Assembly: GCA_031283185.1 (NCBI GenBank)
Contig: JAITCH010000008.1
Span: 1 to 32,420 of the forward strand
DNA: 32,420 nucleotides
Direction: 5' to 3'
Source: Rickettsiales bacterium
GTDB taxonomy: Bacteria; Pseudomonadota; Alphaproteobacteria; Rs-D84
Below the pieces are notes generated by a model, which was given only the letters and a program-made list of their open reading frames with translations, made no database searches and had not been told where the DNA came from. Both the position numbers and the translations under genes were made by a program. This document shows positions 11,359 through 32,213 of the stretch, piece by piece. The first letter of the stretch is position 1. The number at the start of each line of letters is the position of its first letter.

Positions 11359-12621
11359 TTAGGGTTTCTTTTTCGTGATAAGGGGTTTGAGCAATTTTAA
11401 TGTATTGTTATATATCGCAGTGGTATTCTGTTCCAACAACTTTGCAAATTTATCATCCACCGCGCCGCCCATCTTCTTAGCCAAGACATCCGCTTTATAA
11501 ATCATATATGCCGTTAACGCCCCACCAATCAACAAATTCAAGAAGTCTTTCGGCACAGCCCTCATAAACAAGAAACTTATCGCCGCTACCAACGAAATGG
11601 ACACAATGTAAATTACTACTTGAATCATCTTTTGGATGAGTGCTGAAATGCCATCCCCTCCGAATATACCAGCAAACGATTTCATCGCATCGCTCAATAT
11701 CATTGTATCGCCCCAATCGTCCCCCTTAAATATCTCTGAAAATATCGTGAATGGCAAGAACATCAACATCAGCACCACATCCACCACCACGCCCAATGTG
11801 ATAAACGCAAACTTGAATATGCACCACAAAAATACCACCGCGCCAGCCGCGCCTATCACCGCCTCTAATACCCCCTTGGTCATCATCCCTAGAAATGTCC
11901 CGATCCCATTATAAAAGAAACTGGTCGTCCGTCCCGTCAAACATATTATATCCCCAACACTTTGCGAAGTTAAAAACTTTATGTCCCCGCCGCTCGCCTT
12001 GACCCAGGCCGCTACATCCGCGCAAGTCTCTGATACCCTTCCCACACCAGTATCGCTTAGAAACAAATTGCTCGCCGCGTTGCCCAATGCACTGACCCCG
12101 CCCATAAACATCATAAACAACTCCGCCGGATTGGACGCCAAGAGCGCAGTTCCAATAACTACAAATATCAATTTCTTTGCCGCAGATTCCAGAAACGGCA
12201 TCAACTGAATCTTCGTCCGCATCAGATCCCAAGCCTTTATCCCCAACCAAAACGCAAAGAATATCCAGATCATAAAGATAATCAAGTCCAGTAAATTGTC
12301 GTAAATAATGCTCGCCACCTGGGACAAGCCGCCCACTATGATTAATGATGCGTGCACATCCAATGGCGCGTTATTCGCACGAAAATCCGCAGAGGTTGGG
12401 AAGTCTAATGCCGGTTTTTGAGCAAGAGGGATTTGGAGGGGGGAAGGAGAATTATTTTGTGTCGGCTGCGCCGACTGGTTGTTGACCACTACCCCGGCGG
12501 CATTCGCCGCCACCCCTTCGCCAGCGAAGGGGACTATTGAGCTAGCGGAGGGGACTATGGTGCCTGCCGCATCGGCAGCGAAAGGAAATAATAAGAAAAG
12601 AGCAAATAGAATACGAATCAT
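11359..12621 (-). CDS. VirB6/TrbL-like membrane protein, paralogue e (last in operon)
   Basis: The protein is 420 residues. It has an N-terminal signal sequence (ILFALFLLFPFAADAA), an HP-B-derived insert at about residues 22-51 (IVPFAGEGVAANAAGVVV), then about six hydrophobic segments (for example about 112-128, 150-165, 250-275, 285-300, 345-365). The general layout fits VirB6/TrbL, the polytopic inner-membrane channel component of type IV secretion systems. The tail LLEQNTTAIYNNTLKLLKPL is shared with the first gene of this operon, showing that they are paralogues. Its ATG overlaps the stop of the gene before it by 4 bp. No other T4SS genes are in the window, so the system it serves is unknown. 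Confidence 0.65.
   Translation of the reverse strand: MIRILFALFLLFPFAADAAGTIVPSASSIVPFAGEGVAANAAGVVVNNQSAQPTQNNSPSPLQIPLAQKPALDFPTSADFRANNAPLDVHASLIIVGGLSQVASIIYDNLLDLIIFMIWIFFAFWLGIKAWDLMRTKIQLMPFLESAAKKLIFVVIGTALLASNPAELFMMFMGGVSALGNAASNLFLSDTGVGRVSETCADVAAWVKASGGDIKFLTSQSVGDIICLTGRTTSFFYNGIGTFLGMMTKGVLEAVIGAAGAVVFLWCIFKFAFITLGVVVDVVLMLMFLPFTIFSEIFKGDDWGDTMILSDAMKSFAGIFGGDGISALIQKMIQVVIYIVSISLVAAISFLFMRAVPKDFLNLLIGGALTAYMIYKADVLAKKMGGAVDDKFAKLLEQNTTAIYNNTLKLLKPLITKKKP
12462..12556 (+). repeat. Hairpin plus HP-B copy inside virB6-like gene e
   Basis: GTCGGCTGCGCCGAC and TGGTTGTTGACC lead into an HP-B copy with first hairpin CGGCGGCATTCGCCGCC and a tail unit. The same preface (TGTCGGG..CCCGACTGGTTATTGACC) stands before the HP-B copy at 18915. 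The frame stays open just after the signal peptide. Confidence 0.85.
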
Positions 12622-13910
12622 TTGAACCAGCCTGCGATTGTCTTGCCAATCCCTAATGTATACTTCCCTGCGTAAGTTATCCCGCGCCGCAATGCACCCT
12701 CGGCATTAGTTCCGAAATTTATAAACGCGTCCGGCTTGCTAAATCTGCCCATCAACTTAGCCTCTACCACATTATAATAAAACAAAAACACAAATGTAAG
12801 CGTCAGCAACGCCGCAAACGGACTGCTGGGATGATTGTTCACCGCAAACATTATCATATAATAAAACACTGATAACTTTAACGCCAACGACACCATCGCA
12901 ACCGCCAGCCCCAGCGTCTGGCTGAGCGCATTACTGGTAATGTTCTTGGCAACCGGCCAGACATTATCAAACGCATAGCCAGCAATTATCACAGGTAAAA
13001 ACATTATGAAAAATAATATCGTAAATAATATATTCATTAGCTCGAAAAATAACTTCACCCCGTAAAGTGCGAAAAATACCGCAAGTGCCAGACCGAAAAA
13101 CCAAAGTATCGGCTTGTTTATACCGGCGTTGTTCATCGTGTCAAAGCCCTTGGCCGCGCCAGCCAAAGTTATCGTTGTGATGATGTTGGAAAAGCAGAGG
13201 AGAGGTTCGGTCGCCGATTCAGTAATGCCACCACCCTGTCCGGCGGAGGCAGGAGAATTATTTACCACTACCCCGCCGCTACGCGGCACTCCTTCGCCAG
13301 CGAAGGGGACTTTTGAGTTCTCGGACAGCGAAAGAGAATTTGGACATAGCGAATCGGGGAGGCCGGCAATGCCAAGCGATATATATGTCCCCATCGATAA
13401 TATCGGTTTCAATGTTATCTCGGTCGCAATCCTGGGCATCGTGCTTCCAAGACTGCCAATCGCCCCGAGTATTACGCCCACTATGACTATACGCACGCCC
13501 TGTCGCCAAAGCGTATCTATCCACTTCGTAAAGTCAAATGTCCGCTCCCCAAGATCCTCTATTTGCGCCGTTTGATCCGCCGACTTTTTCAGAAGTTGAA
13601 ACGCCGTAATCGTCGCAAAAACCCCAAACCCCAACAACATCATTACCCATATGTGATTCACAAATACTTCATACACACTCAACGCCGCATTGTCCATCGC
13701 CCCCACAAGCTGCCTGATATGCGGGCAAAATATACACGCCGTTTGCGATTGCCCGAAAATGTCCGCAAGCGTTATCGTGCCGAGATCCTGTCCAGTAAGC
13801 GTCTTGCCATAATAATAAAGCACCGCGGAAGTTGCAAAAATCCACGCCACGCCCTGCACAATGTAGGGGAGCGCGAGTCTTATTAAAATGCCTACGGCTG
13901 GTAATGCCAT
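12618..13910 (-). CDS. VirB6/TrbL-like membrane protein, paralogue d
   Basis: The protein is 430 residues with multiple hydrophobic segments (about 8-33, 88-107, 139-156, 240-255, 270-300, 340-365, 370-385). A CIFCPHIRQLVGAMDNA stretch (CxxC at about 59-62) lines up with CWSC and CWAC motifs near the N-termini of two neighbouring paralogues. Two fused repeats encode about residues 197-228 (KVPFAGEGV, SPASAGQGGG), between the ITLKPIL segment and a central hydrophobic block, probably an extramembrane loop. The C-terminus ends in basic residues (YAGKYTLGIGKTIAGWFK). It overlaps the next gene by 4 bp and is separated from the gene before it by a repeat-filled 306-bp gap. Confidence 0.62.
   Translation of the reverse strand: MALPAVGILIRLALPYIVQGVAWIFATSAVLYYYGKTLTGQDLGTITLADIFGQSQTACIFCPHIRQLVGAMDNAALSVYEVFVNHIWVMMLLGFGVFATITAFQLLKKSADQTAQIEDLGERTFDFTKWIDTLWRQGVRIVIVGVILGAIGSLGSTMPRIATEITLKPILSMGTYISLGIAGLPDSLCPNSLSLSENSKVPFAGEGVPRSGGVVVNNSPASAGQGGGITESATEPLLCFSNIITTITLAGAAKGFDTMNNAGINKPILWFFGLALAVFFALYGVKLFFELMNILFTILFFIMFLPVIIAGYAFDNVWPVAKNITSNALSQTLGLAVAMVSLALKLSVFYYMIMFAVNNHPSSPFAALLTLTFVFLFYYNVVEAKLMGRFSKPDAFINFGTNAEGALRRGITYAGKYTLGIGKTIAGWFK
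13228..13340 (+). repeat. Two repeats inside virB6-like gene d
   Basis: A GGGCAGG-type variant remnant (CCACCCTGTCCGGCGGAGGC) at 13228-13260 is followed by HP-B with CCGCCGCTACGCGGC and TTCGCCAGCGAAGGGG at 13264-13340. Orientation is plus, against the gene. Confidence 0.8.
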
Positions 13911-13916
13911 TGGTTG

Positions 13917-14216
13917 TCCTTTGTGTTTGCCCTTACCGCCCGCCGTGCGTGAAACGCACCGGCGTGGCTCCTCTCCCGGCGGAGCCGGGCGAGGCTCTTA
14001 CAATATATCCCGGCCTCCGCCGGGATGACGACACTTTGTGTCGTTTCGGCTGCGGGTGGAGACCCACCCCGCCACCATTGGCGGGGAATTTTATTCGGCG
14101 AGATCCCGGTGTCAAGCACCGGGATGACTTATCACCACTACCCCGTCCGCCTACGCTTCGCTACGGCGCGACACCCCTTCGCCAGCGAAGGGGACTTTTG
14201 AGCCAGCGGAGGGGAA
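13917..14216 (+). repeat. Repeat-filled gap inside the virB6-like operon
   Basis: Contents: hairpin GTGCGTGAAACGCAC; CCCGGCGGAGCCGGG hairpin; HP-D at 14007-14030; ACGACACTTTGTGTCGT at 14028-14044; short HP-B (14051-14093); HP-C (14100-14128); full HP-B with tail (14133-14216). The last unit ends in GGGGAATTA, whose TTA is the stop codon of the minus-strand gene. No gene is seen. It splits what is otherwise an overlapping operon. Confidence 0.8.
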
Positions 14217-15440
14217 TTATTTCTTTATCAACTTCTTTACCTCTGCATATACTTTCGTCGTTAGTTGCGCGGCATTCTTATATGCCGCATTGCCAATGTC
14301 TTCCTTCTCCGTTATCCCAAACGCCGACTTTATCTCCGCCGCCACTTTACCTATATTATTAATGATAAATCCAATTACCACAATCAAAATTACAAAGCCA
14401 CTCGCAGATTTTAATATGTCCGGCGACTTGAAATTTATATTGCTAAAATCACCGGCAAGCGCACTCGCCGTCGTCTGATCCCCCAGACCAATAAATCCAG
14501 AAATGACCGAAATAATCACTATATACAAAATCATCATCGACCCAAGCGTGATAATCGAACTTACCACATCCTTGAAAAATGTCGCCGACATACCGCCAAT
14601 CCCCTTTACCCATTCCGGCGATTCCGAATCCCGAATCACAAACGCCGCAAGCATTATCGGAAACAAAAACGCAAAAAATGTCAGCGACAACACCGCGTCC
14701 AAAAACATAAATAAAAATTTTAAGAATATCAGCGCGAACCTTCCCGCTATATAAATCCCAAGCAAAAACAATAAAATCGTTTCCAAGATCGCTGCAAAGT
14801 CCAATAGCAAAATGCTTTGTAGAATCTTCCAATCTAATGACGCGTTCACCATCCCGAGCCCAAATAATATGAGGTTCTGAAAGCCAATCGTGGTAGTTCG
14901 CATAGTGGAGAGGATGGAGTGTTTTAAGTCAGAAGAATAAAACCCATTGCCCCCACCCTGTCCGGCAGAGCCGGACATCCCGCCCCCGGTTCCGGGGGCA
15001 GGAGAATTTTGCCGAGATTGCCCGGTCAAGCCGGGCAATGACTTATTATTTGTTCCGGGGGCAGGAGAATTATTTTGGGGAATTTTGGAGAGGGTGCTGG
15101 TCATCATCGCAATGGGTTCGATGGTAGCAGATGTTAACATCTTTGGAAACTCAATCCCTATGCTTAACAATGCGGAAATAATTAATGCGGGCAGTAAGAC
15201 CGGCTTTACCAATCTTTTATAAAACAACGGATCTTTATCCGAATCCTTCAACTTAATTACCATCAAATACACGACATAAAATGCAATAAACGCCGCCATA
15301 ATTATCAGCGCAAATTGCGATATTCTTGGATATGCCGCCGCAGCCGCGCCCGATACAGTATCAAACATCGCGTCAAATACAGGGCAGGCCCAGCACTGCA
15401 TCGTATGTCTTATTAAAAAGTCAAACGCTTCATTCATCAC
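14217..15440 (-). CDS. VirB6/TrbL-like membrane protein, paralogue c
   Basis: The protein is 407 residues. The N-terminus RHTMQCWACPVFDAMFDTVSG carries the CxxC seen in two other paralogues, followed by a hydrophobic segment (about 42-62). Further hydrophobic stretches lie at about 84-97, 185-200, 210-245, 250-275 and 300-335. A repeat-derived, Gly/Pro/Asn/Gln-rich insert occupies about residues 121-166 (NNSPAPGTNNKSLPGLTGQ and GGGMSGSAGQGGG), between two membrane regions. The basic tail TTKVYAEVKKLIKK resembles those of its neighbours. It overlaps the upstream gene by 4 bp. Function as a type IV secretion channel component is inferred from architecture only. Confidence 0.62.
   Translation of the reverse strand: MMNEAFDFLIRHTMQCWACPVFDAMFDTVSGAAAAAYPRISQFALIIMAAFIAFYVVYLMVIKLKDSDKDPLFYKRLVKPVLLPALIISALLSIGIEFPKMLTSATIEPIAMMTSTLSKIPQNNSPAPGTNNKSLPGLTGQSRQNSPAPGTGGGMSGSAGQGGGNGFYSSDLKHSILSTMRTTTIGFQNLILFGLGMVNASLDWKILQSILLLDFAAILETILLFLLGIYIAGRFALIFLKFLFMFLDAVLSLTFFAFLFPIMLAAFVIRDSESPEWVKGIGGMSATFFKDVVSSIITLGSMMILYIVIISVISGFIGLGDQTTASALAGDFSNINFKSPDILKSASGFVILIVVIGFIINNIGKVAAEIKSAFGITEKEDIGNAAYKNAAQLTTKVYAEVKKLIKK
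14949..15072 (+). repeat. Three repeats inside virB6-like gene c
   Basis: GGGCAGG-type HP-B variant (14949-15010), HP-C (15014-15041, arms ATTGCCCGG / CCGGGCAAT) and the tail half of another variant (15054-15072, TTCCGGGGGCAGGAGAATTA). The last duplicates the end of the first, which suggests insertion of HP-C into the variant with duplication, or two independent insertions. Confidence 0.8.
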
Positions 15441-16597
15441 TTTTTTAACTTCTTCTTTATATACGCCGTCGTTTTGTCTGTAGCGTATTTCGCCGTCTTC
15501 TTCGTCAAATCATACAATGCCGTATTGTTCGCGCCGCCATACTGCGCGATCTTTTCCTTGGCAATTTCATAGAACTTATTCATTATCAGCAAGCACAGCA
15601 CGCTTCCCAAGATCGTCATAATCCCAGTTCCCCAGCCGCCGCCAGATAAATTCGCAGTCCCGCTGCCAACCACGCTCGCAATCAATATCATATTAATCGT
15701 AGTCGCAATGCCAGCCACAATCATCGTAACAATTAACTTCCGAAGACTCTCAATTATATCCCCAAGCGCGTCCCCGGGATTAAACCAATCGTCCCCCTCA
15801 GTCGCCTTTAAGCAATACGAAAAGACCTTGAATGGAAACAATATAATCGCAAAACAGAAATCCAATATACCTTGGAGCAATATAGACGCCAGCCGCAGAC
15901 CAAACATAAAAAATGTCCCAGCCATAAACAGCCCAACAATGAAATTGAATATGCCTTTGCCTAGATCGGGGGGACTAACCACCCCGGCGGCGTTCGCCGC
16001 CACCCCGCCACCATTGGCGGGGAATTTCATATTGATTATGGATAAGCCAAGCGCAACCATCTGATTATTCTTATACACAATACTCGCAATAGGATTCGCA
16101 AAGTCCGAACACAACTTCTCGTCAAAAAACTCCCTCGTTGCGCCAGGTAAACACTGCGCCCGAGACGCCGTCGACGACGGCACCACAAACTCGGTTATCA
16201 TCGTCCCAACACGCAACATCGGATTTATAATCGTATCCGTTATCAATGATGGACGAATAGTAAGCAACAACAATGTCGCAATGCTCGCACGCACTATCTG
16301 CTTTACCAATCGCATCGGTATGCCGCGAATCAAATCAGTCGGCTTTGCCCAATAGCCCCCTCCGTTCATCCCTAGAAAACTGAGCCAATTCGCTGGAAAA
16401 AACTGCTTGGTAGTAAATACCGCAGAATTAAACACAATAACAATCCAAAGCAATCCAGACAGCACAGGCACAAAATAATCATACACCCCCGCCGCCGCGC
16501 CCATCATAGCCTGTATAACAAGCGGCACGAATTTGTCGAACGAGGTCGCGTTCAACCAATCAGGCACCATCGGTAAAGATACAAGCGCGTCTATCAT
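15437..16597 (-). CDS. VirB6/TrbL-like membrane protein, paralogue b
   Basis: The protein is 386 residues. Hydrophobic segments lie near 25-60, 105-120, 212-235, 240-262, 285-310 and 322-345. An HP-B copy encodes KFPANGGGVAANAAGVVSPP at about residues 190-209, right before the segment GIFNFIVGLFMAGTFFMFGL. The tail ANNTALYDLTKKTAKYATDK is the counterpart of the NTTALYN tails of the first and last genes. Two isolated Cys residues (QCLPG and KLCSDF) sit in the loop before the repeat and could form a periplasmic disulphide. It overlaps the preceding gene by 1 bp and the next by 4 bp, so the genes are translationally coupled. Confidence 0.62.
   Translation of the reverse strand: MIDALVSLPMVPDWLNATSFDKFVPLVIQAMMGAAAGVYDYFVPVLSGLLWIVIVFNSAVFTTKQFFPANWLSFLGMNGGGYWAKPTDLIRGIPMRLVKQIVRASIATLLLLTIRPSLITDTIINPMLRVGTMITEFVVPSSTASRAQCLPGATREFFDEKLCSDFANPIASIVYKNNQMVALGLSIINMKFPANGGGVAANAAGVVSPPDLGKGIFNFIVGLFMAGTFFMFGLRLASILLQGILDFCFAIILFPFKVFSYCLKATEGDDWFNPGDALGDIIESLRKLIVTMIVAGIATTINMILIASVVGSGTANLSGGGWGTGIMTILGSVLCLLIMNKFYEIAKEKIAQYGGANNTALYDLTKKTAKYATDKTTAYIKKKLKK
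15976..16026 (+). repeat. HP-B copy inside virB6-like gene b
   Basis: ACCACCCCGGCGGCGTTCGC..CACCCC then GCCACCATTGGCGGGGAATT. In frame, no stop, plus orientation against the gene. Confidence 0.88.
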
Positions 16598-17949
16598 TAT
16601 GGTTTCTTCTTTACTATCATTTTCTTTATGCTGTTATACAGCGCAGTCGTATTCGCCTGCACATTTTTTAATAACTCGTCCGGCAAACTCGCATCACTTA
16701 CCAACTTCTTGATCAACTCCGTCATACCGCCCAAGAACATCGCAATGAATATACCGAAAAATGCCAATGTCGTTATCTTGCCCGCAAGCAATCCATCCGT
16801 CCCAATTATCGCAGCCGCTTCGTTCGCGCGAAACGACGCATTCAAATCATTTAATCCCGCGCCACTTATCAACTGACCCACCATCCCAAGCGCAAATGTC
16901 ATAAACACTGCAATCATACCAACACCAACCGCCGTCTTTATTGTGTCAGTAATTATCGCCATTATGTCTTTATCCTCGACCTTCCACAAGCCGTTATTCG
17001 CAAACAGCCACCCAAGCAATGTCATCGGAAGAAATATAATGTCAATCGCAAACTTAATAATGAACTCTAAAAACGCCATCGCAATCGGAACAATCATCCA
17101 CGCATACACAAACATAAACATTAACCCAAGCAAGATCCATCCCACATTCGGGAACAACGGAATGTCCGCGACCTTGATATTAATCTTATACATATGCTTG
17201 GCGTCAAACGCGCTATTGAATATAAGCCACCCAGCCGTCATCCCAGATGCACTAAGCATATGCAACTGCGCGATGGAACACAACATTTTATGTCGGAAAG
17301 TCGGTGAAAACACACCAACACTTCCGCTCTGTCCGGCAAAGCCGACAGCCCCGCCGCCTATCCCTGGCGTCGCTGGATTAACAGGCTCTGAAATCGCGGT
17401 CGCAACCAAGCACGCTTCTAAACTTGCATCGTTCGGATCCAAAGCCTCGGACAGGACATTCTGAAAACTTAACGCCGCATTGAAACTTGGCTCTACTATC
17501 AACCCAGACACCATCCTGGGCAATGGCAACATCAGCAATATCGTTATAAACGCCAATTTGACCAAGTGCCGCCCCAAACGGCCAGTTTGCTTCCACATAT
17601 TCGTCTCTGGCTTTGCCGTCAGATACCCGCCCATCAATATCCATGCAAAATATATCGGCGTTAAAATTACCGCGAGGAGTGCGACAAATTCCCCCAAGTT
17701 CGCATACGCCGCCGCCGCTGTCGCTGAAATCCCATTCGTAACGCCGCCGAAAATTTGACACGACCAGCAACTGCTGAAAAAATCCAACGCCGCCGATGTA
17801 TTCGTCTCTACAAAACTGCGATACACCACCGCGCTTAGCACCGCTACCGCCGCCGCAATCGGTAAAACCGGCAAGGCTGCGCTGGCCGCGAAAATCGCGC
17901 CGAAGGCCGAGACGGCAGATAACAAAGTAAGACGCAGTTTGTTCATCAT
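16597..17949 (-). CDS. VirB6/TrbL-like membrane protein, paralogue a (first in operon)
   Basis: The protein is 450 residues. An N-terminal hydrophobic stretch (about 5-42) is followed by SCWSCQIFGGVTNGISATAA (CxxC at about 60-63), then hydrophobic segments near 86-110, 130-150, 285-325, 355-378 and 408-425. A decayed repeat encodes TPGIGGGAVGFAGQSG (about 200-215). The tail NVQANTTALYNSIKKMIVKK is nearly the same as that of paralogue e. GGGAGA lies just before the start, and TATAAT lies 16 bp upstream. It leads a five-gene minus-strand cluster of the same family, as with the multiple tandem VirB6 genes known in Rickettsiales. Homology to those proteins is not proven from sequence inspection alone. 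Confidence 0.65.
   Translation of the reverse strand: MMNKLRLTLLSAVSAFGAIFAASAALPVLPIAAAVAVLSAVVYRSFVETNTSAALDFFSSCWSCQIFGGVTNGISATAAAAYANLGEFVALLAVILTPIYFAWILMGGYLTAKPETNMWKQTGRLGRHLVKLAFITILLMLPLPRMVSGLIVEPSFNAALSFQNVLSEALDPNDASLEACLVATAISEPVNPATPGIGGGAVGFAGQSGSVGVFSPTFRHKMLCSIAQLHMLSASGMTAGWLIFNSAFDAKHMYKINIKVADIPLFPNVGWILLGLMFMFVYAWMIVPIAMAFLEFIIKFAIDIIFLPMTLLGWLFANNGLWKVEDKDIMAIITDTIKTAVGVGMIAVFMTFALGMVGQLISGAGLNDLNASFRANEAAAIIGTDGLLAGKITTLAFFGIFIAMFLGGMTELIKKLVSDASLPDELLKNVQANTTALYNSIKKMIVKKKP
17324..17375 (+). repeat. Decayed GGGCAGG-type repeat inside virB6-like gene a
   Basis: CTGTCCGGCAAAGCCGACAG followed by CCCCGCCGCCTATCCCTGGC resembles the 14949 copy but with several mismatches in the second hairpin, so it seems to be an older insertion. 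Confidence 0.6.
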
Positions 17950-20390: not shown

Positions 20391-21201
20391 TGAACCCCCG
20401 AAGAATTGAATCAAGGGTGGAGTTATTACCACTACCCCGTCCGGCTGCGCCGTCCACCCCTTCGCCAGCGAAGGGGACTTTTGTGCTGGGTTTCATTAAT
20501 GTGAGGCGGCGAGAGTCAATGTGTATCCGCGGATAATCATATGTCTCTAATAACTTTTTACTATGTGTCGCAAAAATAATCGCAGTCCCAGCTTGGTTCA
20601 ATTTTACAAATAAATCCATAAGGCGTTTTTCATTCTCGTCATCCAAATTCCCAGTCGGTTCGTCCGCAAGGAGAATATCTGGCTGAGTAACAACTGCCCT
20701 TGCTATCGCCACGCGCTGCTGCTGTCCGCCAGATAAATTCCGCGGCAATGTCGCCGCATACGGCGCAAGCCCAATCCAATCAAGTATGCGGTCGGTAAGG
20801 CGTTTGATGCGGACGCGATCCACCCCCCGCGCCACCAATGGCAACGCCACATTATCAAACACATTCATCGTATCTATAAGGTGATAGTCCTGAAACACAA
20901 TCCCAATTTTGCGGCGCATATCGGAAATTTGGCGGCGGCTTAGCCCCTTGATATTTTTCCCAAACAATCTTATCGCGCCGCGGGAATTCGGGTGCGTCAT
21001 ATTTATCAATCGCATCAATGTCGTCTTGCCCGCGCCGCTTGACCCCGTCAAAAAGAAAAACGATTTGTCATTAATCCCAAACGATACATCGGAAAGTATT
21101 TCAGGGCCGCGGCCATATCGCGCGCCGACTTCTTGGAACGACACTATAAGTCTGCTGGGCGCAGGCTTGGCAATATGTAAAGAGTCCATTAGGTTTTGCA
21201 T
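20383..21201 (-). CDS. ftsE: Cell division ATP-binding protein FtsE
   Basis: The protein is 272 residues, longer than usual (about 220-230). It is the ATPase of the FtsEX complex. Walker A GSSGAGKT is at 53-60, the Q-loop FQDYHLI near 103, the signature LSGGQQQR at 156-163, Walker B ILLADE at 176-181 and the switch His at 213. At the C-terminus an HP-B copy encodes KVPFAGEGVDGAAGRGSG (about 241-258), after which STLDSILRGFNV follows. An N-terminal extension of about 17 residues before the ABC fold is also present. TATAAT lies 10 bp before the ATG, so the leader may be very short. It is the first gene of ftsE-ftsX-DUF218. Confidence 0.9.
   Translation of the reverse strand: MQNLMDSLHIAKPAPSRLIVSFQEVGARYGRGPEILSDVSFGINDKSFFFLTGSSGAGKTTLMRLINMTHPNSRGAIRLFGKNIKGLSRRQISDMRRKIGIVFQDYHLIDTMNVFDNVALPLVARGVDRVRIKRLTDRILDWIGLAPYAATLPRNLSGGQQQRVAIARAVVTQPDILLADEPTGNLDDENEKRLMDLFVKLNQAGTAIIFATHSKKLLETYDYPRIHIDSRRLTLMKPSTKVPFAGEGVDGAAGRGSGNNSTLDSILRGFNV
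20428..20486 (+). repeat. HP-B copy inside the 3' end of ftsE
   Basis: ACTACCCCGTCCGGCTGCGC..CACCCC then TTCGCCAGCGAAGGGGACTTTT. The frame remains open and a 12-codon native-looking tail follows. Confidence 0.88.
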
Positions 21202-27877: not shown

Positions 27878-29302
27878 CTATTTTAATCCTAGGGAGTTGA
27901 ATTTGGTTTCGACTTTCGTAATGGCAGTGGATAGAGCACGGAGGTAATCTGTTAAAGTAGAGTTGGCATTACTCGCAACGGGCTGCATAGTCTTCTCCAT
28001 CTCCGTCTTCGTCCCAGTCGCCGATTCCGATACTATAATCTTCCGCATCAATGTATTCAACTCAACCAGCTGAATGTCTGATAAAATCGCCTCGCGTTCA
28101 TTAAAATTCCAATAATACGATTCATCCGCCGAATCCTGCACCCCCTCTGACACGCTTACCGATGTCGCCACCACACCCGCAGGTCCAACATTCATTATCT
28201 CTCCCGACACGCCCCCATTCGACATTCCCAAGTGTCTCGCAATCGTCATCTGTCCGCGCGCGTCCCCCGCCGCCACCCATTCCAATGTTAAATTCATCGC
28301 AGTCAACCTTGCCATCTCTACTGACCGAAACTTCGCCGCGTTCCCAAGCATCAAGGTCTCGTGCACATTAATATCCGCACTCTCCGATGTTAAATCCCCC
28401 AGCACATTCGCCTCGCCGCTGACCCCGAACGCCCCTTCAAACTGCACATTCTCCGCAAACGACAAACTTTCGCTATGACCCCATTCCAACGCCATCTCTT
28501 CGGCCGCCTGCGCCGCATTCGTCTTTAACGCGCCCACATTTTTCAGATCATGCGAATCTAAATTCAAATCGCTGAGCATCGTCGAATCAATCGTCCTCCC
28601 CGTCGGCACGCGCGCCAAATAATCACCCCTTTTCTGCACCACCGGCGTCCCAAGCACCAAGCCTTCGCCCTTTATCTTCGCATTCCAGATTTTTAGCGGC
28701 TGCTCCCAAGTGCCAAATGCGCCATACACCCGCTCCCCTGAAACAAAGCCCGCCCGTTCGCCGCCAGCAAGCGCGACCTGGCGCGTCATAAGCGGAGTTT
28801 GGCCGCGCGTCTCCGCAATAATAACGCCTTGTAAATAACTGCGCCCGCCCGCATCACGCGCCTTCATAACGCGCGCGCGAATCGGGTGCGACTTATCATC
28901 TGTATATCCAAACTGCGCCAGTTCCCCCGTCCGAACCTGATACACCGCCGCACCAGTGAAATTCGCCAAGCGCGATTCGTTCGCCTCTATATATTCCGTC
29001 AGCGCGTCCCGCGCGGTCGCAAGATGCGCCGTTTGCTCTGCCGCTAGCCGCAGCGTCTCGCGGCTCGCCGCCTGGCGATATATAAATGGCAGCAGGCTCA
29101 TAAAAATTGCAATCAGCATTAGGAGTTCGAGAAGGGAAGAGCCGCGTTCTTTATTATTCGAACCACCCCGTCCGGCTACGCCGTCCACCCCCCCACCCTT
29201 GGGGGGGAATTTTTTGCGGGCTACGCCCGCGATTTTTAGCCCTATTCCCGCCTGCGCGGGAATGACAAAAGAAAGGAGGGAGAATTGATTCTGTATATTC
29301 AT
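27878..29302 (-). CDS. PilV-like type IV pilin/adhesin, paralogue 3
   Basis: The protein is 474 residues from the ATG at 29302, which overlaps the stop of the upstream gene (ATGA). A prepilin-peptidase site KERG-SSLLELLMLIAIF gives a Glu at +5 and a hydrophobic helix, but the leader ahead of it is about 54 residues and is largely translated repeats (FVIPAQAGIGLK, KKFPPKGGGVDGVAG). The pilin body continues to the PilV-type join YLARVPTGRTIDSTMLSDLN followed by LDSHDLKNVGAL, after which a long beta-rich tail begins. This matches the type IVb PilV/shufflon-type minor pilin layout, where the C-terminal part binds the recipient surface. A Gly/Val-rich tail ends in helical SLGLK. Third gene of a three-gene operon. 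Confidence 0.72.
   Translation of the reverse strand: MNIQNQFSLLSFVIPAQAGIGLKIAGVARKKFPPKGGGVDGVAGRGGSNNKERGSSLLELLMLIAIFMSLLPFIYRQAASRETLRLAAEQTAHLATARDALTEYIEANESRLANFTGAAVYQVRTGELAQFGYTDDKSHPIRARVMKARDAGGRSYLQGVIIAETRGQTPLMTRQVALAGGERAGFVSGERVYGAFGTWEQPLKIWNAKIKGEGLVLGTPVVQKRGDYLARVPTGRTIDSTMLSDLNLDSHDLKNVGALKTNAAQAAEEMALEWGHSESLSFAENVQFEGAFGVSGEANVLGDLTSESADINVHETLMLGNAAKFRSVEMARLTAMNLTLEWVAAGDARGQMTIARHLGMSNGGVSGEIMNVGPAGVVATSVSVSEGVQDSADESYYWNFNEREAILSDIQLVELNTLMRKIIVSESATGTKTEMEKTMQPVASNANSTLTDYLRALSTAITKVETKFNSLGLK
29159..29266 (+). repeat. HP-B plus GCGGGC hairpin plus HP-D in the prepilin leader
   Basis: HP-B (29159-29214, second hairpin CCCCCCACCCTTGGGGGGG) is followed by GCGGGCTACGCCCGC, ATTTTTAGCCC and HP-D ATTCCCGCCTGCGCGGGAAT (29244-29263). 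The second part repeats the composite at 2157-2207. All of it lies between the start codon and the peptidase site of paralogue 3. Confidence 0.88.
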
Positions 29303-30681
29303 TCTGCCACCTGCCAATTGGAATTCATTAATTTCGACATATCTATATGCTCCGCAGTCAACAACTCAGTCAATTCATCCGACGAATACGCCATAACGCG
29401 AATCACATGAAACTCCGGCGTATTACCAGGAAACGACCAGTTCCCTAACTTGATCGGAGGCATCATCGTATCCATCATCCTATCACTCGAAATCGTAACC
29501 CCGCCGCCGCCACCCACATTCAACGCCGCCACCGAAATAGTCGGCGTGCTTAATGAATTCGCCGCTACTTCATCAAATGCAGAAATCGTCCGTGCGGAAA
29601 ATGGCTTTATGCTAAGCGTATTTCCCACAAGCAATTCTTCCGTTATGGTCGTTCGATCCGCCACAACCCGTCCCTGCGAACTGAAAGTATTTTCCGACAA
29701 TGTCGACATCCCCGACCCAGGCAAGCCCCCGTGCAACGCCGCCGCCGTCATAGTCTTCACCCCCACAATATCCCCAGCGACCCTTAATGTCTTCACAAAC
29801 GATTTCTCTGGATTCAACCTCAACCCCTTGGCGAACAACACCGACACCGAATCAAATGTGTCCGCTGACAAATGCGGCGCAGTCGCGTCCGATGCGTCAA
29901 TCTCTACACCATCCGCCAATCGCACCCCCACAATCCCAAACCTTTGGCCGCCACTCGACATCAACAGATTCGTATCCATCGCATTTAACTCCGGCGACCC
30001 AGCCACAGGCACACGATGCAAAAATCCATCCCTGTCCAAATCATTCCCAGTCGCAGATACCCGCACCTGCACCGCGCCATCTTCGTTCACCATCGCGCCC
30101 GCGCCGATATGCCGCGCAAATCTTGCCGCCGTCATTTGCGCCGACCCCGTCATCGTAGTCGTCATATATGCGTTAATCGCAAACACACCCAGCGCAGTTT
30201 GTTTCTTTGTTATATGCACCTGCGGCGCGTTGAAAATATCCGGATGCGATGCGCGCGGGCGAGTTGCCCCATAGGCTTCAAATGTCGCAAAAAAATCATC
30301 CGCGGCGATTTTATATTCATATTCATCCGGCCAGACCGACTGATTCAATAGCATAAAATTTCGAATCGCATCGGCGAGAGTCGTAAAACGGCGCGCGGCA
30401 GAAACCTCTGCCAATTCTTGTGTTGTTTGTGCGATGCGGTCATAAACCCACGGCGCGGCAAGTCCAAGTATGCCGATGGCGAGGAGGGTTTCTAGGAGGG
30501 AGGAGCCGCGGATGGAGCGTTGGTAAGCACCAACCACCCCGCGCCCTTCGGACGCACCCCTCCACCTTGGAGGGGAATTTTTATTGACCACTACCCCGTC
30601 CGGCTGCGCCGTCCACCCCTTCGCCAGCGAAGGGGAATTTTGTGTGCGACACCGGCGAAGGGGGATTTTTATCATAAACAT
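29299..30681 (-). CDS. PilV-like type IV pilin/adhesin, paralogue 2
   Basis: The protein is 460 residues from the ATG at 30681, which has GGGGGGAG just before it. An ATG at 30675 overlapping the upstream stop (ATGA) is an equally good start. The site SIRG-SSLLETLLAIGI has Glu at +5, like paralogue 3. The leader of about 57 residues contains two translated HP-B copies (SPSLAKGWTAQPDGVVV, then SPPRWRGASEGRGVV). The body carries DRDGFLHRVPVAGSPELNAM followed by TNLLMSSGG, a close match to the R-V-P-G-x-P-E-L-N-x-M-x-T-x-L junction of PilV proteins. The remaining 270 residues are Ser/Thr/Ala/Val-rich and probably beta-structured. Confidence 0.75.
   Translation of the reverse strand: MFMIKIPLRRCRTQNSPSLAKGWTAQPDGVVVNKNSPPRWRGASEGRGVVGAYQRSIRGSSLLETLLAIGILGLAAPWVYDRIAQTTQELAEVSAARRFTTLADAIRNFMLLNQSVWPDEYEYKIAADDFFATFEAYGATRPRASHPDIFNAPQVHITKKQTALGVFAINAYMTTTMTGSAQMTAARFARHIGAGAMVNEDGAVQVRVSATGNDLDRDGFLHRVPVAGSPELNAMDTNLLMSSGGQRFGIVGVRLADGVEIDASDATAPHLSADTFDSVSVLFAKGLRLNPEKSFVKTLRVAGDIVGVKTMTAAALHGGLPGSGMSTLSENTFSSQGRVVADRTTITEELLVGNTLSIKPFSARTISAFDEVAANSLSTPTISVAALNVGGGGGVTISSDRMMDTMMPPIKLGNWSFPGNTPEFHVIRVMAYSSDELTELLTAEHIDMSKLMNSNWQVAE
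30528..30671 (+). repeat. Two HP-B copies in the prepilin leader of paralogue 2
   Basis: 30528-30582 has GCGCCCTTCGGACGC and TCCACCTTGGAGGGG. 30585-30671 has GTCCGGCTGCGCCGTCC, TTCGCCAGCGAAGGGG and a further tail unit. They are read in two different frames by the gene and yet leave it open. Confidence 0.88.
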
Positions 30682-32159
30682 TGACTCCCCCCTGCAATTA
30701 AACACTTCTTTATCTCTATCCGGCGTTCAAGGCGCGAATACATCGCATACCGGCACGCAATATTTTGCGATACGCTATTCGCATCATATTTATGACCAAG
30801 TTGCTCTATAATCGACCGGCAGGAAATCGTATCGCCATTACTTTTTTCCGGCGATGAAATTATCTTGATCGAATCATTCGAAATGTTTTGCAATCGCATA
30901 TCCGGCAACAACGATGTCCCCGCAGGTCTTATCGATACAATCGTCGGCGACGCCGTATCCCCGCCGACCAGCACCCTTGCCGTTTGATCGCGCAGCGTAA
31001 TATGCGCCGCGGACAATATCCCCGCAAACACCCCGCTGCGTTTCGTCCCCGTATCGTCATACGAAAACACATTCGCATCACTCGTAATCTCTGCAAAATT
31101 CGCAATCGTTATAAGTCCTAAATCACTAAGCGCGGTATTACTTAACTCCGCACTTCCTTGCACGCGCCATTTCAGCGGTCCGATAAACGATGATGACCCG
31201 GGCGACTGATCATAATCCAACACCGACACCAGTCCTGTTTTCAACTCTGCCCCTTGGCCGCCGTATGACGAAATGCTCCGCACCGACATACTTCCCACAT
31301 TCAACTCGCCGCGCGATAAATTCAATGCGCTATCCCCGCTGGACGCGCCTGTGAATGTCGCCGAGGTCGCCGTCAACTCCTTTATGTCATTCGTTGCCTT
31401 GGATTCGTCCGCGCCGCTGATATGCAATTTGCCGAAAAACGCCGCTGAAAACTTCATACGCAACGCCTCTAATGTCCTCGCGCCAACAACATCGTGATAC
31501 TGCATATCCAAATCTGTCTGCATCGCATTCCTTGCCGGATTCGCAGATGTGCGCGCAAGTAAATCCGAACTCGCCGCCGTTAACGGAATCCTCATAAACA
31601 CCGATGTCGTTGCAAAATCCCCAGGCAATTCCCAATCTCCCGTCGCGCCGCGCAACCCAGTCGCATCCGCAAGCCCTGCCCAGAATCCCAGGCGCATTGC
31701 CAAATTCGCCCTGCGCGATTCGCTTAATCCGCCGCCAAACGCCTCTATTAATGGCGTAGGCTCTTCGCCCTGAACCACATAGAATTTTAGATCTTGGCCC
31801 AGTGGTGTCCGAGGGTTCCATCCAAGTGGCAAGCCATATGGTTCCAAAAAGGCGGACAGCGCGGAGCCGGAAATGACCTTGTCCGGGAGTTTGTCATTAT
31901 TGTCGCGGACGAATTCTGACGCCGCTGTATAAAGCGCGATCATATGCTCTGCCGCAGCAGTGGTTTCCGCGTCAGTCGCGCGATTTGCAAGACGACCAAA
32001 TAATGTCGGCATAAACGCAATTACAACCGCAAGTATCAATAACGCTTCAAACATAAAACGGCCGGAGGCAGGAGTGTAGGGAAAAGTCGAACCACCCCGG
32101 CGGCTCCGCCGCCACCCCCCCACCCTTGGGAGGGAATTTTTTTCTTTTAGGGATTTCAA
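30672..32159 (-). CDS. PilV-like type IV pilin/adhesin, paralogue 1
   Basis: The protein is 495 residues from a TTG at 32159. The TTG start is favoured by a strong AGGAGGGAG six bases ahead and a promoter just upstream. A prepilin-type site ASG-RFMFEALLILAVV (Glu at +5) follows a 33-residue leader that is mostly translated HP-B (NSLPRVGGWRRSRRGGS). The pilin part EHMIALYTAASEFVRDNND and the junction FMRIPLTAASS..ARNAMQTDLDMQYHDVVGA again fit PilV. The tail is beta-rich and ends with several Cys (SCRSIIEQ, ACRYAMY, KCLIAGGSQCL), unlike the other two. It is the first gene of the operon; its stop overlaps the next start region. Confidence 0.75.
   Translation of the reverse strand: MKSLKEKNSLPRVGGWRRSRRGGSTFPYTPASGRFMFEALLILAVVIAFMPTLFGRLANRATDAETTAAAEHMIALYTAASEFVRDNNDKLPDKVISGSALSAFLEPYGLPLGWNPRTPLGQDLKFYVVQGEEPTPLIEAFGGGLSESRRANLAMRLGFWAGLADATGLRGATGDWELPGDFATTSVFMRIPLTAASSDLLARTSANPARNAMQTDLDMQYHDVVGARTLEALRMKFSAAFFGKLHISGADESKATNDIKELTATSATFTGASSGDSALNLSRGELNVGSMSVRSISSYGGQGAELKTGLVSVLDYDQSPGSSSFIGPLKWRVQGSAELSNTALSDLGLITIANFAEITSDANVFSYDDTGTKRSGVFAGILSAAHITLRDQTARVLVGGDTASPTIVSIRPAGTSLLPDMRLQNISNDSIKIISSPEKSNGDTISCRSIIEQLGHKYDANSVSQNIACRYAMYSRLERRIEIKKCLIAGGSQCL
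32087..32142 (+). repeat. HP-B copy in the prepilin leader of paralogue 1
   Basis: GAACCACCCCGGCGGCTCCGCCGCC then CCCCCCACCCTTGGGAGGGAATT (named in parts): GGCGGCTCCGCCGCC and CCCACCCTTGGGAGGG hairpins, in frame between start codon and peptidase site. Confidence 0.85.
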
Positions 32160-32183: not shown

Positions 32184-32213
32184 ATTATAGAGAGATTAGG
32201 GTAGGGGGGGCAA
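32184..32213 (-). promoter_or_regulatory. Promoter of the pilV-like operon
   Basis: Minus strand: TTGCCC (32208-32213), 18-nt spacer, TATAAT (32184-32189), about 25 bp before the TTG start. The untranslated leader would be short, about 18 nt, with the AGGAGGGAG ribosome binding site inside it. Confidence 0.6.

Follow-up and report, generated by a model that had tools for sequence, protein, structure and literature searches.

Three neighbouring prepilin-like genes are located on the minus strand of the window (the whole stretch of 32,420 nt that was analysed); in the operon gene 3 comes first, followed by gene 2 and then by gene 1. Their layout and the repeat units mapped within their leaders, for which no strand is given, are as follows.

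32184–32213, minus strand: candidate promoter ahead of gene 3 (TTGCCC-18-TATAAT), recognised by its match to the consensus
30672–32159, minus strand: gene 3, first in the operon, PilV/Shufflon_N-like, processing site G/RFMFE; leader 32061–32159, 33 aa, TTG start
32088–32144: dispersed repeat unit in the gene 3 leader, 92% match to a copy in locus L048
29299–30681, minus strand: gene 2, prepilin-like, processing site G/SSLLE; leader 30505–30681, 59 aa; its ATG at 30681 overlaps the stop of gene 3, and its beginning MFMIK matches MFVRK in genome G002
30586–30644: repeat unit 2 in the gene 2 leader; the ftsE-ftsX junction (20428–20485) has a copy with 98% identity to it
30530–30584: repeat unit 1 in the gene 2 leader, member of the dispersed family
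27878–29302, minus strand: gene 1, prepilin-like, processing site G/SSLLE; leader 29141–29302, 54 aa; its ATG overlaps the TGA stop of gene 2 as ATGA
29215–29279: second repeat unit (SFVIPAQAGIG type) in the gene 1 leader, member of the dispersed family
29162–29216: repeat unit in the gene 1 leader; a copy in locus L050 matches it at 94%

Translation places 33 residues between the TTG at 32159 and the Gly at 32061–32063 in gene 3, 59 between the ATG at 30681 and the Gly at 30505–30507 in gene 2 (57 if counted from the ATG at 30675), and 54 between the ATG at 29302 and the Gly at 29141–29143 in gene 1. Together with the mapping of repeats this bears out the sequence-only reading, which had described long, repeat-filled leaders in all three genes. 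Its sizes of 54 and 33 residues were correct, while for gene 2 the conserved MFxxK start gives 59 rather than 57. The feature, placed there at 29159–32142, extends to 27878 when the last gene is taken in full.

As in type IV prepilins with class III signal peptides, all three products have a Gly at position −1 before the cut, a hydrophobic helix and Glu5, and the genome encodes a prepilin peptidase of the A24 family (PF01478 at C7:22819, E 1.2e-15; locus L153, G000:C7 22.0–24.2 kb), which keeps the conserved aspartate motifs IDLRARLIPD and GGGD. A T2SSF protein is encoded as well. The name PilV-like, originally given to all three genes, finds some support for gene 3 only: among 18 homologues of this gene, 4 weakly matched Pfam Shufflon_N (PF04917), the domain of the PilV minor pilin (best E 1.2e-4), the window's own gene 3 protein gave no PF04917 match in the Pfam scan, and genes 1 and 2 matched no Pfam family. 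Predicted models of genes 3 and 1, low in overall confidence, contain a long N-terminal pilin helix (residues 2–54). A fold search of these models against PDB returned nothing at E ≤0.001, the best match of the gene 3 model being C. difficile PilW (E 0.13), and when PDB sequences were searched with profiles, geopilins were matched weakly, by the gene 1 profile only. The difference from known prepilins lies in leader length. Leaders of 6–26 aa are given in a 2014 review (PMC4471445), while a later one treats leader length as variable and very long in S. sanguinis (PMC10191384). The leaders studied here (33, 59 and 54 aa) exceed the range of the short hydrophilic leader set by the former, whereas those of relatives mostly fall within it. 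The leader of gene 1 (29141–29302) also contains a borderline membrane-spanning segment (LLSFVIPAQAGIGLKIAGV, KD19 1.61), which is at odds with a neutral hydrophilic tail.

Homologues were found by an alignment (profile) search of genome contigs; a single-protein search gave none. The three-gene cassette is conserved in most related genomes found (L054–L133). In a survey of related genomes that covered loci on 80 contigs, the three genes usually had leaders of 6, about 15 and about 16 aa, and those of relatives range from 6 to about 20 residues. Within the same genus they are short, for instance MKNQRG (G002), MKHTRG (G001), MFVRKAERG (G002) and MPRIKSELG, and relatives with the same starts as the genome studied here have mostly leaders of 6–9 residues. 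Expanded leaders or junctions nevertheless recur in G003, G004, G005, G010, G011, L060 and L072. Long leaders read from overlapping starts were registered in G003, G004 and G011, whereas in G005, L060, L072 and L089 the enlarged junction is partly spacer and the start lies well downstream of the preceding stop. In a post hoc tabulation 6 of the 12 large junctions were open from the overlapping start, against about 14% expected for each if unconstrained. The gene 1 leader of G011, which belongs to another genus, contains the same repeat family as the genome studied here.

The length of the leaders depends on the start codon used, and the sequence-only reading itself had named a true start near the Gly as the result that would overturn it. 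According to this alternative, the repeats are plain intergenic insertions, translation begins at GTG codons that they carry, leaving leaders of 21, 11 and 16 aa, and the open upstream frame is accidental. In-frame GTGs are indeed available at 32123, 30537 and 29188 in genes 3, 2 and 1, respectively, and in gene 2 of G003 a repeat ending in ATGAC supplies an ATG seven codons before the Gly. However, the Shine-Dalgarno (SD) energies at these nearest repeat-borne GTGs are weak in genes 3 and 2 (+2.0 and −5.0 kcal/mol) in comparison with those of the old starts (−10.7 and −10.0 kcal/mol). In gene 1 the GTG equals the ATG (−7.6 versus −6.8 kcal/mol), though its SD directly abuts the codon, so that for this gene the energy by itself is indecisive. 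The upstream starts are favoured because they are conserved across same-genus relatives: the SD site of gene 3 (GATGTAGGAGGGAG) is found in G002 with one substitution, the start context of gene 1 (GCAGGTGGCAGAATGA) aligns with GCAGGAGGTAGAATGA of G001, and the stop-start overlaps at the starts of genes 2 and 1 are matched in G001–G003, mostly with short leaders. Moreover, a segment of repeat length is open in 42% of frames; being open as well as in frame has a probability of about 0.14 in each gene and, as a rough figure, of about 0.003 for all three, which also argues against an accidental frame. Initiation at the repeat-borne GTGs thus appears unlikely; they look like weaker, though possible, starts, and the comparison retains the upstream ones.

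The repeat units, about 55–68 nt long and built as a hairpin followed by AATTTT, belong to a dispersed palindromic family which covers about 5–6% of the 283 kb sampled from this genome. Within these stretches 174 elements were marked, 85 of them outside and 39 inside ORFs of at least 150 codons; placement followed a crude rule on simple ORF calls, some of which are doubtful. Most repeats sit at gene boundaries. Within the genus, their 67-nt consensus has at least 41 matches here and 0–1 in G001–G003; elsewhere in the bacterial family its presence is patchy. In-frame inserts of 14–67 aa, missing from same-genus relatives, were found in RecG (L138/L139), MutS (L143–L145) and ValRS (L148–L151), the names being our reading of the sequences. 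In being dispersed and palindromic, and in having in-frame insertions in existing genes at sites that are empty in relatives, this family is like the coding elements known as Rickettsia palindromic elements (RPE). The prepilin peptidase has repeat-like residues VIPAKAGISNCNKSLPGLTGQSRQ near its C-terminus, which are absent from G001, G004 and G007, but a short RVKPGMT stretch occupies the same site in G003, so the peptidase case is not clean. The repeat at the ftsE-ftsX junction (window 20423–20486) is seemingly read as a C-terminal tail of FtsE (KVPFAGEGVDGAAGRGSGNN). Repeat-like inserts were also noticed in four adjacent ORFs (window 11359–17949), which we take to be VirB6/TrbL-like; a Pfam scan of two of the four gave no hit.

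Each main leader unit finds its best BLAST match (92–100% over the aligned stretch) elsewhere in the genome, not in either of the other leaders. This is consistent with insertions that took place separately, as had been supposed from the different repeats in each gene. Gene duplication carrying the repeats along was considered and rejected, since the cassette is old and the inserts are absent from most relatives. A role in operon termination was rejected too, since the orientation of the hairpin-plus-T sites within the leaders is that of the opposite strand. Some assembly error at the leader repeats may be present because the genome is fragmented (15 contigs).

Based on these data, we consider it probable that palindromic repeats spread through the genome and landed separately in the three leaders, and that the old starts are still used, the leader being cleaved off and the mature pilins unchanged. 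Short palindromic repeats would have spread both between genes and in frame within them, similar to RPE, and several units would have inserted, each on its own, where the three closely spaced prepilin genes begin. Overlaps join genes 3 and 2 as well as genes 2 and 1 and presumably offered no spacer to take insertions; with the start codons kept, the inserted DNA would for this reason have become extra leader residues. The ribosome probably still initiates at the old upstream start; the added residues would remain on the cytoplasmic side until the peptidase cuts after the conserved Gly, leaving mature pilins unaltered. Low fitness cost would then be the reason why the leader repeats were retained.

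It may be supposed instead that the long leaders are adaptive, their basic, glycine-rich extension having been selected for changed targeting, timing or regulation of minor pilins. The net charge of the three leaders is +6 to +9, and enlarged leaders recur in several genera, as selection would suggest. Against it, leader sequences are wholly different between genomes, as are the inserted repeats, close relatives do without long leaders, G007 is rich in repeats yet short-leadered, and the same repeats are present in unrelated proteins. We therefore regard selection for long leaders as very improbable, still less likely than initiation within the repeats.

The hot spot at leaders proposed in the sequence-only reading is not supported in that form. 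An element search of 20 cassette loci matched five leader or upstream segments, all in this genome (G000) or in G011, while the mature coding parts of these loci, 72,102 nt in all, gave no element match; the six query elements were taken from G000, so that repeats peculiar to other genomes may be missed. Yet the same repeats occur in housekeeping proteins, repeat-like residues are present in the prepilin peptidase, G007 with its 57 element matches has leaders of only 6–12 residues, and in this genome two further prepilin-like genes possess leaders of 6–7 residues. A hot spot restricted to leaders is not supported, given the in-frame repeats in RecG, MutS, ValRS and inside other ORFs. The cause appears to be a genome-wide repeat invasion rather than anything leader-specific, with leaders as one tolerant place among the many that were hit. 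The data fit tolerance at the leaders of this cassette, but it would be inseparable from tolerance at gene boundaries generally, because in an overlapping operon leader and gene start are the same place. That prepilin leaders form a safe-harbour class, removed after translation and absorbing repeats repeatedly across genera, with a peptidase tolerating almost any leader length or sequence, is conceivable but rather doubtful.

The nearest precedent for the in-frame repeat insertion seen here is provided by the palindromic elements of Rickettsia and Wolbachia, which are likewise short and dispersed and have entered existing genes without shifting the frame (PMC3767692, PMC10969869). The likeness to them concerns the mode of insertion of dispersed palindromic repeats. 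Units of the present family are shorter than RPE (about 55–68 versus 100–150 nt) and more numerous (about 174 elements in 283 kb), and they occur in a different lineage, with a patchy presence even within one genus. Bacterial REP/MITE repeats are likewise short, hairpin-forming, dispersed and often placed at gene boundaries, but many copies of the family described here are read in frame. A literature search, with most subscription journals outside its scope, gave no paper joining palindromic elements with prepilins.

Relatives of this genome include Candidatus Enterousia and metagenome-assembled genomes (MAGs) labelled as Rickettsiales or Alphaproteobacteria bacterium. Enterousia belongs to the order Rs-D84 and represents gut bacteria with reduced genomes (PMC12306168); from this kinship we infer a gut source and the same order for the bacterium studied here. 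As far as can be judged from sequence, a gut lineage that belongs to neither Rickettsia nor Wolbachia shows an RPE-like process here, in which prepilin leaders apparently serve as tolerant landing sites. It adds a dense and recent burst of repeats in another alphaproteobacterial lineage with reduced genomes. The insert-free relatives of the same genus open insertion into core proteins to site-by-site study, and the long leaders provide a natural experiment on the amount of added sequence that a prepilin peptidase can tolerate.
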